The translations under genes and the position numbers were made by a program. The notes below the pieces were generated by a model. The model did no database searches, had not been told where the DNA came from, and saw only the letters and a program-made list of their open reading frames with translations. A stretch of 8,310 nt of DNA, taken from contig JAGBGE010000031.1 of NCBI GenBank assembly GCA_017936125.1, forward strand, positions 1 to 8,310, in the 5' to 3' direction. Shown piece by piece: positions 2,762 to 8,310 of the stretch (position 1 is its first letter; each line of letters starts with the position of its first letter). Source of the stretch: Clostridia bacterium. GTDB lineage: Bacteria > Bacillota_A > Clostridia > Oscillospirales > CAG-272.

Positions 2762-2787
2762 GGTGCCGCATTTGCGGCACCTTTTTT
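2762..2787 (+). terminator. intrinsic terminator of the dCMP deaminase gene
   Basis: GGTGCCGC (2762-2769) pairs perfectly with GCGGCACC (2774-2781) over an ATTT loop, and six Ts follow. It begins 7 nt after the stop codon. The T-run overlaps the stop codon of the convergent AlaX gene (2786-2788). On the minus strand the same hairpin is followed by GAATCTTTAG, a weak U-tract, so it may also terminate the opposing operon less efficiently. Confidence 0.92.
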
Positions 2788-3928
2788 AATTGGCAAAATA
2801 TGATTCTATTTCAGCAAGCGTCACCGAGAACGAGCCCTGCACCATATTAGGCTTGCCGCCACCTCTGCCCGAGAGAGTCTTGTTGATAGAGGCAATCTCG
2901 GTGCGAAGGTCTGTATTTTTCGAAGAAATTACATATTTGTAGTCACCGTCACTGCCGGAGAGCGCAACGAGAATGCCGTCAACCTTCTGCACTGCTACGT
3001 TTGAGAAAGCAATAAGCTCCGGTATTGTGAATTCGGAAAAATTAACGACAAGATTGCCTTTTGTAGCCGGAACAGCGCTTCCCTCACGCTCTGCGAGCTT
3101 CAAGCGGCAGTTCTTAAGCTCCTGCTTGATCTGCTCGGAGTCGGTGATATATTTCTCGAGCGCATCGGCAGTTTCGTGCTGCGGTGTTGAAGTAAGAGCA
3201 GAAATTTTCTTAATGTTCTCATATTTCTTGCGATAATCAAGCAAAGCACGCTTGCCGGCAACCATCCAAATGCGAGTGCCGCCACGGTGCTTCATAAAAT
3301 CAAGAATCTTGATAAGTCCAACCTCTCCCGTACAGGCTACGTGAGGCGCACAGCAGGCGCAGGAGTCGTAGTCTGCTATTTTGACAATACGAACGCCCTC
3401 GGTGAAATCAAGCTTAGAGCGATATTCGAGTTTTTTTAACTCGTCTTCCGTCGGGAAAAAGGTATCAATACGCGCATTTGAGAATACCGCCGCATTGGCA
3501 AGGCTCTCAACCTCGTCGAGCTGCTCACGTGTGAGAACTCCGTCAACGTCGAATGTCACCTCGTCGTCTCCAAGGTGGAATCCAACGTTGGAAAGGCCGT
3601 AAAGCTTGTGTATAAATCCACAGAGTATATGCTCTGCCGTATGGCACTGCATCTTCTCAAATCGCTCGTCAAAATCAAGGATACAATGCACAGCCTTAGC
3701 CTCCGGGGCGAGATCGGTTAGATGATGTATCACCCCGTCCTTCTCATAAACGTGATTAACTCGAGCGTTCGCAATATATCCTCTGTCAGACGCCTGTCCT
3801 CCCTCCTCGGGGAAAAAGGCGGTTGCTGAAAGAATGACGTCGTAGCCGTCATCCGTCTTTTCAGAGGAAAGTATTTCTGCGTCAAATTCTTTTATGTACG
3901 CGTCCTTATAATAGAGCTTTTCGGTCAT
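2786..3928 (-). CDS. alanyl-tRNA editing protein, AlaX type with DHHA1 domain
   Basis: Free-standing relative of the alanyl-tRNA synthetase editing domain, expected to hydrolyse Ser-tRNA(Ala) or Gly-tRNA(Ala) in the cytoplasm and so prevent mistranslation. In the 380-residue product, PEEGGQASDRG (40-50) is the N-terminal editing-domain motif. HTAEH (96-100) and CCAPH (192-196) supply the zinc-binding His96, His100, Cys192 and His196. A charged helical, probably coiled segment lies at about 230-285. The C-terminal DHHA1 domain ends with GRGGGKPNMVQGS (354-366), the glycine-rich motif shared with AlaRS and DHH phosphoesterases. It lacks the aminoacylation domain. It is the second gene of an operon: 9 bp separate it from the pseudouridine synthase gene, and its AAGGTG ribosome binding site (3934-3939) overlaps that gene's stop codon, suggesting translational coupling. 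Confidence 0.92.
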   Translation of the reverse strand: MTEKLYYKDAYIKEFDAEILSSEKTDDGYDVILSATAFFPEEGGQASDRGYIANARVNHVYEKDGVIHHLTDLAPEAKAVHCILDFDERFEKMQCHTAEHILCGFIHKLYGLSNVGFHLGDDEVTFDVDGVLTREQLDEVESLANAAVFSNARIDTFFPTEDELKKLEYRSKLDFTEGVRIVKIADYDSCACCAPHVACTGEVGLIKILDFMKHRGGTRIWMVAGKRALLDYRKKYENIKKISALTSTPQHETADALEKYITDSEQIKQELKNCRLKLAEREGSAVPATKGNLVVNFSEFTIPELIAFSNVAVQKVDGILVALSGSDGDYKYVISSKNTDLRTEIASINKTLSGRGGGKPNMVQGSFSVTLAEIESYFAN

Positions 3929-3937
3929 AATTTCACC

Positions 3938-4615
3938 TTAATTTATTTCGTATTTTTCTTTCTCAAAAAGTGACCAAGGCAATTCATCGAGATTCGGGAG
4001 AAGCGAGGTATCTGCGGCAAGTCCGTCCTTATCAAAGGCTATGTGATAGGCAAAAAGCGCAGGCGCATTTCCACGGTGCTTGCTACCGTATTTCTTATCC
4101 GCAAACAGCGGCATATTACGCGAGGAAAACTGCGCTCTTATCTGATGGAATCTGCCCGTGTGAAGCTTGATTTTTACTAGCGAAAGAGGCTTTCCGCGAT
4201 ATTCGGTAGTATCAAGCACTTTATATTCAAGCTTCGACTCCTTTGCACCTTTTTGGCTGTGAGCAGCTACAATCGCCTTGCCCAGAGTCGCATCCTTATA
4301 TAAATAGTCAAACATTTCACCGCCCGAGGCTATTCCGTCACAGACGGCAAGATATTCCTTGCACAGCTCGCCATCCTGTACTAACGAGGAAAGCGTGGCA
4401 GCGCTTTTTTTATTTCTCGCAAAGGCGAGAAGTCCACCGACAACTCGATCAAGTCGGTGAATAAGATATAGCTCGCTCGGCTCTCCGAGGCTCAAAAGCT
4501 CACGCGAAAGCGCACTCATAGCATCCTCGTCACCACTCTTATCGCTCTGCGATGGAACCCCACTCGGCTTATATCCTATTATAAAATCAGGAGTTTTGTA
4601 AATAATTCTTGTCAT
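3938..4615 (-). CDS. RluA-family pseudouridine synthase
   Basis: Isomerises specific uridines in rRNA or tRNA to pseudouridine; the exact target site cannot be told from sequence. The 225-residue product begins MTRIIYKTPDFIIGYKPSG. The motifs are KPSGVPSQSD (16-25), the catalytic HRLDRVVGG (53-61, Asp56 as nucleophile), LHTGRFHQIRAQF (151-163) and FADKKYG (171-177). RluA members usually read HRLDRxTSG; here TSG is replaced by VGG, with the catalytic Asp kept. No S4 RNA-binding domain is present at the N-terminus. The frame is open further upstream to a GTG at 4675, but that codon has no ribosome binding site and the extra residues would be encoded across a terminator-like hairpin. The ATG at 4615 has AGGGG (4620-4624) 4 nt away, so I chose it. 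First gene of an operon with the AlaX gene. Confidence 0.92.
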   Translation of the reverse strand: MTRIIYKTPDFIIGYKPSGVPSQSDKSGDEDAMSALSRELLSLGEPSELYLIHRLDRVVGGLLAFARNKKSAATLSSLVQDGELCKEYLAVCDGIASGGEMFDYLYKDATLGKAIVAAHSQKGAKESKLEYKVLDTTEYRGKPLSLVKIKLHTGRFHQIRAQFSSRNMPLFADKKYGSKHRGNAPALFAYHIAFDKDGLAADTSLLPNLDELPWSLFEKEKYEIN

Positions 4616-4624
4616 ATATCCCCT

Positions 4625-4665
4625 AAAAAGAAGAACGGAGATCGTATTTTTGATTCGACCTCCGT
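4625..4665 (-). terminator. intrinsic terminator or attenuator hairpin ahead of the pseudouridine synthase gene
   Basis: On the minus strand, ACGGAGGTCG (4665-4656) pairs along its whole length with CGATCTCCGT (4644-4635), with one G-U wobble, around an 11-nt loop, and TCTTCTTTTT follows. On the plus strand the wobble becomes an A-C mismatch, so the hairpin belongs to minus-strand transcription. It would end transcripts of the large surface-protein gene. It also lies downstream of the promoter at 4715-4743 and directly abuts the ribosome binding site of the next gene, so it could attenuate that gene. Confidence 0.75.
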
Positions 4666-4714
4666 CTTTTCGCACTTTTATTCGACTTAAATTTTCAGAG
4701 ATGAATTTTTAATT

Positions 4715-4743: not shown

Positions 4744-7700
4744 GTGCTTTGGTTGTTTTTGTCCTTTGCTTTCATTGTTACGGTTTTAATCGCCTCACCG
4801 CCCGTCAGCGCTATCATTTTTACCGCTGAGAGACTGAAGTCGTTTGCATACACGGTTAAGGGTTTGTCAATAATGCCGCGCGCAAGCACCTTGATATACG
4901 CGGTATCATACGGAATCAGGCTCTTGCTCTTTAGAATATTGATGTCAATTCGGTCGCCCGAGAGAAAATTCTCACTCAAGGTATCCACGTTTATTATGCC
5001 CTTTCCATTACCGTCGGTATAGACGCAGTCGTTCCCCTTGCGCACCAAATTTTTGGCAAGCGAATCGGTGATCAACTCATCCGCTCTTTCGACATCGACT
5101 CCGAAGCCCTCCAGCGATTCGAGCGACTCGAGTTCTTCGCTAAAGTTCTCGTGCTCCTTTTCATCTGCTTCAGGCTCAACATCTTCCTCATCAATTTCTG
5201 TCTCGGCTTCCTCTTTCGCTTCCGGTTCTTCAACCTCGCTCTCGGTACTTGAGGCTTGCCACTCGGTAATAACTCTGCGCTGCGGCTTGGGCGGTGATAT
5301 AGGAATGGCTCTATTGTTCCATCTGCAACGAGCTATGGCTATCGCGTTCTTTATCCTATGCTTGTTGCGATATGCGAAAACGAAGACGGCAATTAGCGCT
5401 AAAATAAGCAAAAGCCACAATAAAATACCTAGTATTCCTCTAGCGGAAGGATAAGGCAGACGCACTATTTGACCGCCTGTCTGAACGACTGTGTAATTCG
5501 GATTATCAGAGCGCAAGCGGATATATCCACCCGATTCAATCTGCGTGAAAGTAATATTATCACCAAATATCACGTCGCCTTCATTTATTAAATAATCTAT
5601 TTCGCTCGGACTCTCCCATAGGTGCAGAACTACGTCGGGAGTCGTTACCGCGATATTTTTGGGAAGAATTTTGAATTTCGCGCTACATCTCTCACCGTTT
5701 GTACTGAAGGTGTAATTCTTAGAATCTGTCAGCTTTAGCGTAATTTCATATTCTCCTGCATTAGTGTAGACGGGTGCTGACACAATGGTATAAAGTGCCG
5801 AATCACTAATCGGTGTAATGGGCCTGCCGTTGTATGTTGCCACAATCGTAGGAATGGATATTTTGCGCTTCTCTATCCTAAAGCTGCAAGGCAATATTTC
5901 AGGGGGAACATAATTAACTCTGTCATATTCAAGAACTGCCGTTACAGTATAGGTTCCCGCATCAACCGCGCCATCCACGGCATACTCCAAAACGTTTATG
6001 CCATCAGGCAATCCCGAAAGATTCGGCAATAGCCTTGCTCCGCTATAATACTGAACAGTATTCTCCCATCTGACTTGACTGAGGTCATATTCGGCAAGGC
6101 TCACTACTATATCCTGCTTATACGTAAAGTTCTTATATACGAAGCTAACGCTTTCGTCGGATAGTGAAATGAAATTTCCGCTCTCGTAAACGACTCTGAC
6201 AAGCGAGGACTCAATAGATGTTTTAGTGCCGTCGTTATATAGAAGATAGGCATGGAAATCGCTTGGCAGCAGCTTATCAAATACACAAATTTTCTCTTTT
6301 TTTATATCAACGCAAACCTCGATCGCTACCACCTTTTCTATCTCAAAGGCAAATGGCGATGAGGTAAGAGCGTAGTAATTTTCAGTTTCAGCAACCTCGG
6401 CTATGCAATAGTATACGCCTGCATTGCGTGGTGTTTTGATCTCGTTTTTACATTGCGGATCATTGAAATACCGATAGGTAATTTTGCCGAATCTCGACTC
6501 GCCGAAGCCACCCGGCTCGCGACTTTCGTAGCAGGTTTTCGAGGCGGGAGCCGTAGTCCAAGAGTTGTATGATTTGACTATTCTGAAGTCAAAATCTTTG
6601 TTTTCTACCAAAAAGTCGCTGCTTTCTGCCGCAGCCGACGCCTTATAGCTGCCGACGTTTATACCGCCGCCCTGAACATTTATTCTGCATTCAGGCGAGG
6701 TTGCAAGAGGCTTCACCGTCTCTCCGGTATAGGATAACTCGTCGCCGGACCAGCTGACGTATATCCCCTTCGGAATTATTCTAACGGTAGAATAACGAAT
6801 ATCGGGGACAAGGTAATTTTTACTTTTTGTTGTAAAGGATATGTTGACCTCAACTATTCCCTCGTCTACGTGTACGGCTCCTGCCGAAAAGCTATACTCA
6901 AGTCTGATGCCGTCAGCACCCGTCGGCATAACGCCAAGAAGCGTCGGGTAATGTATCCTGCCGTCATATATTGCCTCGGTGGGCATAAAGCTGACACCGC
7001 TCATATCGTACTCGGCGGGCTTGATCTCCCACTCATGCGTGAGAGTGGCAGGCGCATTATAATTCTTACTATCCCAGGATAGCGTTGCCGTTGCTAGATA
7101 ACTGCCTGCATCACGAGCGCGGTCGTTCTTATATCCGACTATATTCACACCGTCAGGTAGTCCCGAGAGATAAACTCGCTTCTCGCTGCCGTCGTAGGAG
7201 AACTCTGCATCACTCCATGACGCAGAGCTTAAATCATAGTCTGCTCTTTTAATTTCGTAGCTACAGCTTGTATTACTAAAATGATAGTTCGGGTCACTGA
7301 CGGAAGCGGTAGCAGTATACCCCACTCCCGCCTCGGTTGCCGCGCCGAAAACTGCGGGATATATGGTCGCGCCGCTGACATCGGTATAATATGCAGTAGG
7401 AATCTTGCTCTTACCGTCGTATACGAAGGACGTGTTAGACCACTTTATCTCGGTCTCGGCAGGCAGAACTGTCATAGTAACCGAGCGAGAGTCGGGCGTG
7501 AGATAATCGCGGCTATCCGTTGAAAAATCGAGCGTGACCGAATAACTGCCAACGTCGCTTCCACCACCAACAATGCTTATTAAAAGCGGAATACCGTCGA
7601 GTCCAACTATTTTGGGCAGTGCTGAGGTGTAGCTCTGACTTCTTCCGTTATACTCTACGGTAAAGTTGCTTGGCGCAAGCTCGGAGAGGTCATACGCCAC

Positions 7701-8063
7701 ACGCTCGACGGTTATCGGCAGGTCGATGCTTCTACCACCGTACGTGAGCGAGAGCGAGGTGTCGCCATATCTGAAGCAATCACCTCGCTGATATGCAAAT
7801 CTCACCTCAGAGAGATTAACCGCTTCAGTGCTGCCATCGTCATACACTGCGCGCAGACTCATTCCGCGCGTATCAAGCTTCTCAAACGCTTTGTACACCG
7901 TCTTTTCCGGGAAAGTCTGTATATATAGCCTCTCTACACTCCGGAAATTACTTCTCTCACCGACTTGTCCGTAGCCAACCGCATTACCTTCTGCCGCTTC
8001 GCTCGAAACAAAAATGCAAGAAAGTGATACAAAAATGACAAGTATTGTTAGTATTTTCTTCAT
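4740..8063 (-). CDS. membrane-anchored MBG/Ig-like repeat protein with cytoplasmic uL15-like domain
   Basis: Function unknown; 1107 residues. Residues 1-23 are a signal peptide (MKKILTILVIFVSLSCIFVS, cleavage probably after SEA). Residues 37-119 look like a bacterial Ig-like (group 3) domain (FPEKTVY, YDDGS, YGGRSIDLPITVE), followed by an array of MBG-type beta domains that often open with YDLS or YDMS. A second Ig-like domain (about 577-656) interrupts the array, which resumes to about 874. ILGILLWLLLILALIAVFVF (877-896) is the transmembrane helix, followed by a basic segment (RNKHRIK). Residues 939-985 are highly acidic. Residues 1002-1096 resemble the C-terminal half of ribosomal protein uL15. 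The predicted topology is array outside, uL15-like domain in the cytoplasm; there is no LPXTG motif. About ten cysteines lie in the extracellular part. The ATG at 8063 has GAGGAG at 6 nt spacing; the frame's upstream extension runs into the promoter and is rejected. The gene is flanked by its own promoter and terminator. Confidence 0.85.
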   Translation of the reverse strand: MKKILTILVIFVSLSCIFVSSEAAEGNAVGYGQVGERSNFRSVERLYIQTFPEKTVYKAFEKLDTRGMSLRAVYDDGSTEAVNLSEVRFAYQRGDCFRYGDTSLSLTYGGRSIDLPITVERVAYDLSELAPSNFTVEYNGRSQSYTSALPKIVGLDGIPLLISIVGGGSDVGSYSVTLDFSTDSRDYLTPDSRSVTMTVLPAETEIKWSNTSFVYDGKSKIPTAYYTDVSGATIYPAVFGAATEAGVGYTATASVSDPNYHFSNTSCSYEIKRADYDLSSASWSDAEFSYDGSEKRVYLSGLPDGVNIVGYKNDRARDAGSYLATATLSWDSKNYNAPATLTHEWEIKPAEYDMSGVSFMPTEAIYDGRIHYPTLLGVMPTGADGIRLEYSFSAGAVHVDEGIVEVNISFTTKSKNYLVPDIRYSTVRIIPKGIYVSWSGDELSYTGETVKPLATSPECRINVQGGGINVGSYKASAAAESSDFLVENKDFDFRIVKSYNSWTTAPASKTCYESREPGGFGESRFGKITYRYFNDPQCKNEIKTPRNAGVYYCIAEVAETENYYALTSSPFAFEIEKVVAIEVCVDIKKEKICVFDKLLPSDFHAYLLYNDGTKTSIESSLVRVVYESGNFISLSDESVSFVYKNFTYKQDIVVSLAEYDLSQVRWENTVQYYSGARLLPNLSGLPDGINVLEYAVDGAVDAGTYTVTAVLEYDRVNYVPPEILPCSFRIEKRKISIPTIVATYNGRPITPISDSALYTIVSAPVYTNAGEYEITLKLTDSKNYTFSTNGERCSAKFKILPKNIAVTTPDVVLHLWESPSEIDYLINEGDVIFGDNITFTQIESGGYIRLRSDNPNYTVVQTGGQIVRLPYPSARGILGILLWLLLILALIAVFVFAYRNKHRIKNAIAIARCRWNNRAIPISPPKPQRRVITEWQASSTESEVEEPEAKEEAETEIDEEDVEPEADEKEHENFSEELESLESLEGFGVDVERADELITDSLAKNLVRKGNDCVYTDGNGKGIINVDTLSENFLSGDRIDINILKSKSLIPYDTAYIKVLARGIIDKPLTVYANDFSLSAVKMIALTGGEAIKTVTMKAKDKNNQST
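4776..5060 (-). other. uL15-like C-terminal domain of the surface protein
   Basis: Residues 1002-1096 contain GKGIINVDTLSENF, then LKSKSLIPYDTAYIKVLARG, then DKPLTVYANDFSLSAVKMI and ALTGGEAIKTV. This follows the order of the ribosomal uL15 C-terminal fold: the 'vN.d.L..F' strand, 'L...glI....vKVLg.G', 'LtvkAh.fS.sA' and the terminal 'aGG'. The basic rRNA-binding N-terminal half of true uL15 is absent and is replaced by the acidic linker. Automatic annotation may therefore name this gene a ribosomal protein, which would be misleading for the whole protein. Confidence 0.75.
5370..5435 (-). other. transmembrane helix of the surface protein
   Basis: Residues 877-898 are almost wholly aliphatic and aromatic and are followed by RNKHRIK, a positive-inside stop-transfer signal. 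With the N-terminal signal peptide this predicts a type I topology, with about 850 residues outside the cell and about 210 inside. Confidence 0.85.
5442..7694 (-). repeat. array of divergent MBG / Ig-like beta domains (protein-level repeats)
   Basis: Within the surface protein I count about nine to ten modules of 65-85 residues. The recurring marks are an opening YDLS or YDMS, a mid-module Y(D/N/S)G, a D(A/V)GxY strand near the end (SDVGSY, RDAGSY, VDAGTY, TNAGEY, RNAGVY), and NYxxP or NYxF before a closing I(K/E/L)(P/R/K). The best-matching pair is LSGLPDGVNIVGY with LSGLPDGINVLEY. The modules are diverged at DNA level, so they are ancient rather than a recent tandem expansion. Such domains serve as adhesive or spacer modules in cell-surface proteins; the ligand here is unknown. 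Confidence 0.8.
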
Positions 8064-8106: not shown

Positions 8107-8135
8107 ATTATACCACTCTTTTGGAAAATCTTCAA
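8107..8135 (-). promoter_or_regulatory. sigma-A promoter of the surface-protein gene
   Basis: TTGAAG (8130-8135) and TATAAT (8107-8112) have a 17-bp spacer on the minus strand, and an extended -10 TGG precedes TATAAT. The predicted start near 8100 leaves a leader of about 37 nt. Confidence 0.8.
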
Positions 8136-8219: not shown

Positions 8220-8310
8220 CAATAAATATCCCCCCGTAGAACGGGGGGTATTTCATTTTCGGGCATAGCCCTAACCGCTACTGGCGACGCACAAGTGCGT
8301 TTTAGATTGA
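8220..8310. repeat. hairpin-dense intergenic segment, possible dispersed repeat
   Basis: The last 90 bases hold three consecutive inverted repeats: the C6/G6 hairpin at 8230-8248, GGGC-ATA-GCCC at 8261-8271, and ACGCAC-AA-GTGCGT at 8287-8300. The minus-strand frames that cross the segment (for example MKYPPFYGG from 8256) have no ribosome binding site and look non-coding. Together with 8136-8220, where I see nothing else, this stretch carries no supported gene. Stacked hairpins in spacer DNA are typical of small non-autonomous repeats, but the window has only one copy, so this is inference. Confidence 0.3.
8225..8259. terminator. G/C-run hairpin, probable intrinsic terminator at the right edge
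   Basis: CCCCCCGT (8230-8237) pairs with ACGGGGGG (8241-8248) over a 3-nt AGA loop. The stem extends with flanking A/T pairs after a one-base bulge. T-rich tails follow on both strands (TATTTCATTTT on plus, ATATTTATT on minus). No gene feeding it is visible in the window; it would most naturally end a minus-strand gene lying beyond 8310. It may instead be one arm of a dispersed hairpin repeat together with the stems to its right. Confidence 0.55.

Follow-up and report, generated by a model that had tools for sequence, protein, structure and literature searches.

Why should a protein that is predicted to be secreted and held at the cell surface end in part of a core ribosomal protein? This question is raised by a gene in the 8,310-nucleotide stretch of DNA analyzed here (the window), whose parts are listed in Table 1. 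A sequence-only reading had placed a uL15-like domain in the cytoplasm behind an extracellular array of MBG modules, described an acidic linker in place of the basic rRNA-binding half, raised the matter of a separate rplO, suspected that the architecture is widespread, and suggested a link of surface adhesion or sensing to the translation machinery. The observation was confirmed and the interpretation was supported in part: the fold, the side of the membrane, the linker, the separate rplO, and the spread stood, and the ties to MBG or adhesion and to the ribosome did not.

TABLE 1 Features of the uL15-tail gene in the window
Feature	Positions	Strand	Basis or remarks
Whole gene: predicted secreted single-pass surface protein with putatively cytoplasmic uL15 tail, 1107 aa	4740..8063	-	ATG, GAGGAG upstream
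Signal peptide MKKILTILVIFVSLSCIFVSSEAA	7992..8063	-	Hydropathy, translation; cleavage site estimated by eye
Extracellular beta-module region (Big_3/MBG-like)	5460..7991	-	Profile scan
C-terminal transmembrane helix, then basic residues	5364..5450	-	Hydropathy, translation
Basic juxtamembrane stretch, then acidic linker	5100..5363	-	Conservation, translation
N-terminal extension of uL15 domain	5016..5099	-	Structure model m2fa7d4d91c8d, conservation
uL15 C-terminal domain, residues 1019-1094	4782..5009	-	Profile match, structure match
Promoter-like site TTGAAG-17-TATAAT	8107..8135	-	10/12, ~44 nt upstream of ATG; counts of promoter-like sites in the region not above shuffles

The C-terminal domain matched the C-terminal fold of uL15 both by profile and by structure model, as had been proposed, and the curated profile match together with the fold places it, at the level of the domain, in the PF00828/uL15-eL18 fold family. 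The match covers only positions 73/74 to 142 of the 144-position profile and scores 27 to 32 bits versus a cut-off of 77.95. In the structure model, the extension that precedes the domain consists of a pair of short helices (ADELITDSLAK) plus part of a strand; it lies outside ribosomal uL15, the alignment of the best match beginning at model residue 49. The swap of the basic N-terminal half for an acidic linker was also borne out, with 25 D/E versus 11 K/R in the 88 aa of the linker part and a median charge of -8 over the ~70 aa before the domain versus +13 in canonical proteins. The net charge of the tail domain itself is slightly positive, near neutral. Compared with the C-terminal globular domain of RplO, the tail thus lacks the basic N-terminal half, carries a new helical extension, and is predicted to be tethered to the membrane; a polar helix face has turned hydrophobic, and the gene lies outside the ribosomal operon.

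Two canonical identities for the window gene were considered and rejected. It does not encode a ribosomal RplO, since there is no full-length protein and an acidic linker stands where the basic rRNA-binding half would be. Nor is it the rplO of a ribosomal operon, since it is not beside secY and its neighbors differ; the scanned neighbors are RluA-type, AlaX-like, and other genes and an IS200 transposase. This IS200-type transposase (Y1_Tnp, E 3e-40; L005:1076-1591) lies ~270 bases upstream of the ATG. Separately, a CCCCCCG/CGGGGGG hairpin with T-rich sequence after it on both strands (window 8230-8248) is a possible bidirectional terminator.

A separate canonical rplO was present in the same bin, on contig C41, in the gene order rplO-secY-adk-map-infA (names by eye), where it is truncated by the contig start; a third PF00828 protein of this 65%-complete bin lies on contig C32. 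The window contig (C7) may, however, be mis-binned, as indicated by its lower identity to the bin's genus and its higher G+C content. Its citrate synthase is 62 to 78% identical to those of six genomes of that genus, and three genomes with the MBG-type gene gave no match for it. The SHMT gene that adjoins the C32 copy is, by comparison, 88 to 92% identical to the same six. The G+C content of the window is 46.6%, versus 38.9 and 41.4% for the examined parts of C32 and C41. Independent support for a separate rplO comes from genome G753, which holds an MBG-type gene (1729-aa frame) together with a 155-aa rplO-like frame.

The positive-inside rule put the tail on the cytoplasmic side, in agreement with the sequence-only reading. 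In the window protein, the 20 residues after the transmembrane (TM) helix carry a charge of +6. Minimal homologues have an N-terminal hydrophobic segment in 120 of 120 among the matches listed (of 457), with a mean K+R count of 0.02 before it and 3.47 after it, and with more after than before in 118 of the 120. For carriers with a predicted TM segment, the K+R flanks of the last one favored an inside C terminus in 85 of 112, were even in 9, and were opposite in 18, and the class most like the window protein (a signal peptide plus one C-terminal TM segment) favored it in 22 of 27; TM calls, like pair identities, came from simple scripts, the former from crude hydropathy windows. From these charge rules only, we infer that the domain is probably cytoplasmic in the window protein and in the minimal class. 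Where a pair of hydrophobic segments lies close together ahead of the tail, the topology is ambiguous.

A search with the C-terminal 208 residues yielded 2668 candidates, of which 396 reached E ≤1e-3. PF00828 was precomputed in all 120 among the matches listed, and 103 of 121 proteins (the window's and these 120) have a signal-peptide-like N terminus and one C-terminal hydrophobic segment. A scan of genome contigs gave 76 loci carrying the domain, with titles naming Clostridia, Oscillospiraceae, Ruminococcus, Clostridiales, Firmicutes/Bacillota, Borkfalkia, Protoclostridium, or plain bacterium. Together with the relatives' loci, these yielded 137 nonribosomal open reading frames (ORFs) that are distinct over their last 300 aa. 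The domain lies at most 60 aa from the C terminus in 134 of the 137, and a TM segment is predicted before it in 89 of 92 5'-complete ORFs, in a protein set gathered by similarity to membrane-bound members. L158 (271 aa, with unread bases upstream), L054 (135 aa), and L055 (368 aa) lack a hydrophobic segment before the domain. Open frames range from 135 aa (L054) to 5284 aa, the shortest with a TM segment being 171 aa. That the architecture is an artifact of assembly or gene fusion has a negligible probability: the named records are MAGs or bins by title and the window contig may be mis-binned, but the domain is in frame in all 137 of these ORFs, the search gave 396 proteins, and the spread over many assemblies contradicts an artifact.

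The suspicion that the architecture is widespread, with some sources labeling such proteins as a uL15 family ribosomal protein, proved correct; source names of the proteins listed were "uL15 family ribosomal protein," "ribosomal protein L15," "L18E," or "hypothetical protein." The distribution searches began with a permissive first screen. Scored with a whole-module profile, the listed extension-type matches reached at least 81 bits and canonical proteins at most 68 bits, the latter starting at model position 29 or later. The extension-type tail was found in 5 of 245 genomes of an order sample, all five in one family (f1); within f1 it occurred in 34 of 196 genomes, which represent 15 of 71 genera. 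In a phylum sample of 299 genomes it was found in the window's bin alone; this sample holds no other f1 members and is therefore informative on other families only. The threshold for the family and phylum counts (E 1e-19) undercounts carriers because it misses peptidase-fused domains, which score in the canonical range (44 to 70 bits). PF00828 alone matched more than once in 7 of the 245 order genomes and, among the 299 phylum genomes, in the window's bin only. In Borkfalkia and Protoclostridium, the domain was present in 10 of 10 genomes, which were chosen for carrying it.

The carriers are of several kinds. MBG/InlB-type surface proteins are one, the window's among them; its ectodomain scored 21.0 versus 21.2 bits for Big_3 (residues 52-119) and 10.5 versus 25 bits for MBG_3, and PF18887 and PF07523 are precomputed in many relatives among the matches listed in the 208-residue search. 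Another kind, exemplified by the C32 copy, has an N-terminal TM segment, acidic repeats, and a YdhG-like domain before uL15. This companion occurs in 53 of the 137 carriers and precedes uL15 in 52 of the 53; its fold was assessed as well, and DUF5655 matched in 6 of 26. There are also minimal TM-linker-uL15 proteins (457 at E ≤1e-3; 155 to 209 aa for 120 among the matches listed), SipW-type signal peptidases that carry a fused uL15 domain (in five genomes of the window's genus), small proteins with two TM segments, giant proteins, and a protein with DUF1508. Since the tail occurs on small one-TM proteins and other kinds of membrane protein, and signal peptidases bear a uL15 form lacking the extra helices, we find no role specific to MBG modules or adhesion, to which the earlier reading had tied it. 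So many different membrane and surface proteins with the same tail suggest a common internal docking partner.

Individual carriers showed further features. DUF1508 repeats adjoin the tail at L185:2048-3766 (Pfam match) and L198:1864-4125 (similar by eye). The single open frames L176:1366-17217 (5284 aa) and L177:1722-17381 (5220 aa) end, by look, in a YdhG-like domain and a uL15 tail. At L128 (match 6001-6303), six predicted hydrophobic segments precede the uL15 domain. Genome G750 has 13 tail copies (L163-L175) in addition to the canonical one; over the last 100 aa all 13 are 89 to 99% identical (median, 94), and the five ectodomains long enough to compare are 25 to 35% identical. These copies look like a surface-protein family with an exchangeable outside. 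Contig ends truncate eight of the 13 frames, as would be anticipated for repeats that are nearly identical.

Conservation was compared among 33 relatives of the window architecture, drawn from 35 of the 42 proteins of 1040 to 1160 aa among the 121 (7 were dropped for lack of a motif match, and the window's own two entries stand outside the 33). Median identity fell from 79% in the uL15 part through 66% in the helices and 49% in the ectodomain to 39% in the linker, which ranked last among the four, and the uL15 part was more conserved than the ectodomain in all 33. The great diversity of carriers would suit an inert folded plug or stability tag, for which any small, fast-folding C-terminal domain would suffice. 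We consider this very unlikely, given that the sequence is conserved beyond the fold, both in the contrast of 79 with 49% and in domain positions that are invariant or nearly so across carrier types.

We compared 31 canonical with 129 extension-type domains position by position, with counts that are inflated by relatedness. Ten positions are basic in half or more of the canonical domains (position 44, filled in one canonical row, was excluded), and in the tails 7 of the ten fall below this mark. Positions 71 and 80 are still basic, as is position 103 in half of the tails, and there are five new basic positions plus one where canonical rows have no residue. Positions 94, 96, and 99 of the last helix are polar or small in canonical domains (mostly K94, K96, and A99). 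All three are V, I, L, M, or F in 125 of 128 tails with the extension and in 0 of 31 canonical domains; among 8 without a detected extension, the strip occurs in 1 (L097, which has an extension-like stretch by eye), and the L161 domain is in neither group. In a tree of 95 rows and 72 columns, with many open forks, a branch (94/97, not starred) sets the canonical rows apart from the rest; extension-type rows stand together, L097 among them, and peptidase-fused domains stand elsewhere.

The hydrophobic strip fits packing of the new helices upon it, in cis or in trans. In the latter case, the domain could bind its own copies, the helix of one lying on the strip of the next, and cluster its carriers without any other partner. 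Such homotypic assembly is compatible with the co-occurrence of extension and strip and with the fact that many genomes hold two or more carriers (G750 has 13), but the extension is modeled at high confidence in a single chain, where packing in cis fits equally well, and we hold it to be improbable.

The position comparison also bears on whether a tethered domain might bind 23S rRNA, a uL15-free 50S precursor, or a uL15-recognizing factor and so bring translation to the site of export. The uL15 fold, the basic positions kept, and the slightly positive net charge speak for such coupling, and one carrier class lies near secG-like genes (by eye) while another adjoins SipW-type peptidases. An RluA-family pseudouridine synthase and an AlaX-like protein also lie near the window gene (window 2786-4675) and near MBG-type uL15-tail genes in 20 and 21, respectively, of 22 related loci, a number that counts the window's own. 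RluA and tail genes share their orientation in 20 of 20, but this is a synteny with varying gaps of 64 to 1015 nt. The basic rRNA-binding half is absent, the 7 basic positions are lost, and a canonical rplO presumably fills the ribosomal uL15 site. We found no evidence for the proposed ribosome or translation link, most basic positions conserved in the local rplO having changed, and judge it unlikely.

Several carriers are associated with SipW-type signal peptidases. Among 11 loci from ten genomes with a minimal single-TM uL15 gene, 7 (L183, L186, L187, L188, L231, L232, and L233) have a SipW-type peptidase gene immediately before it in the same orientation; none was directly upstream at the other minimal-protein loci L182, L189, L199, and L234, nor was one a neighbor of six other small carriers (L181, L184, L191, L194, L196, and L200). 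By called starts, the two genes overlap by ATGA in four of the 7, and in the others the uL15 gene begins 12 to 24 nt from the last sense codon of the peptidase gene. Four of the 7 peptidases were scanned and matched NF046067 (E 1e-14 to 5e-18), below that equivalog's cut-off. TIGR04088, the SipW-dependent signal peptide, was above cut-off in two and below it in one of five scanned neighboring proteins. At L231:2162-7499, L232:2406-6170, and L233:1873-6422, a conserved order of a small membrane protein, the SipW-type peptidase, the TM-uL15 protein, and two further proteins was seen, the signal pattern flagging five of the 6 last proteins. In the window's genus, the uL15 domain of five peptidase-uL15 fusions lacks the extension; all five genomes encode at least one adjacent protein with a SipW-signal-like N terminus (GGV.A.W, by eye), and Pfam recognized neither of the two that were scanned.

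That the SipW-type peptidase and the uL15 domain are fused in one lineage and coupled as neighboring genes in another suggests that they work jointly. Having no extension and no strip, and standing elsewhere in the 72-column tree, the peptidase-fused domains may represent a separate recruitment. Co-occurrence at the genome level was weak, with archaeal/SipW-type peptidases in 28 of 34 tail-bearing genomes versus 114 of 162 other family members; such peptidases are thus frequent in the family whether or not a tail is present, which speaks against a general rule. Among its scanned neighbors the window gene has no adjoining or fused SipW-type peptidase, and TIGR02228 had no match at E ≤1e-4 in the 65%-complete bin. 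In other genera, the ~380-aa SipW-like proteins at L241-L248 have a long multi-TM N-terminal part, and no uL15 domain was detected in them. Like the TasA/SipW export operon of Bacillus, the operons at the minimal-protein loci combine a SipW-type peptidase with neighbors bearing SipW-type signals, but they hold a minimal uL15 protein in addition; the available portion of PMC4238804 mentions no uL15 component, and the window gene is not in such an operon. SipW of Bacillus has been reported to be bifunctional (Terra et al. 2012, as cited in PMC4238804).

On balance, with a probability somewhat better than even, we regard the uL15 tail as an exapted docking tail with a shared putative cytoplasmic partner. 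The C-terminal domain of uL15 would have been copied and freed of the rRNA-binding half, would have gained an N-terminal helical cap, and would then have been reused as the cytoplasmic docking tail of membrane proteins in one family of gut Clostridia. One shared partner would recognize the domain and gather or position the proteins that carry it or are encoded beside it, among them surface proteins, the SipW-type signal peptidase, and proteins with the YdhG-like domain. In the window protein, the MBG-like ectodomain would act outside and the tail would fix the protein to the partner. Sequence and model establish the fold, the predicted TM tether, the C-terminal position, the strong conservation among the window's relatives, and the absence of the ribosomal half, whereas the partner, the recruitment, and the clustering are inferred. 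Quite unlikely, by our estimate, is that the tails are membrane-tethered ribosomal-protein mimics that catch ribosomes, 50S precursors, or a uL15-recognizing factor and thereby confine both the synthesis and the export of surface proteins and SipW-type substrates to dedicated sites; if true, this would amount to a lineage-specific coupling of translation to envelope building.

As a standard tail of membrane proteins, a ribosomal domain finds no counterpart among the known systems tested. In LPXTG-type surface proteins, a conserved C-terminal module anchors the protein. The uL15 tail likewise stands as one conserved C-terminal module behind many unrelated ectodomains, but it is a folded and probably cytoplasmic domain rather than a sorting or cleavage signal. 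YidC/Oxa1 insertases have basic, ribosome-binding C-terminal tails; they share with the present proteins a cytoplasmic tail on a membrane protein and a possible link to export, whereas in the uL15 tails an acidic stretch leads into a nearly neutral domain. Roles of ribosomal proteins outside the ribosome form a known class (PMC10931766), and the accessible part of that article names uL15 once, in an operon list. Among the matches listed from the open PMC library, by title and abstract start, no paper on a uL15-tail module appeared.

The finding explains why databases misleadingly name such proteins "uL15 family ribosomal protein," and the minimal form, at 175 aa, offers a small handle for a partner search. 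If the docking reading is true, surface proteins, giant proteins, and signal-peptidase systems (the last by operon or fusion) would have a core ribosomal fold as their common cytoplasmic tail. This would be a novel mode of organizing the bacterial envelope, in a group of animal-gut bacteria that are mostly uncultured and known mostly from metagenomes.
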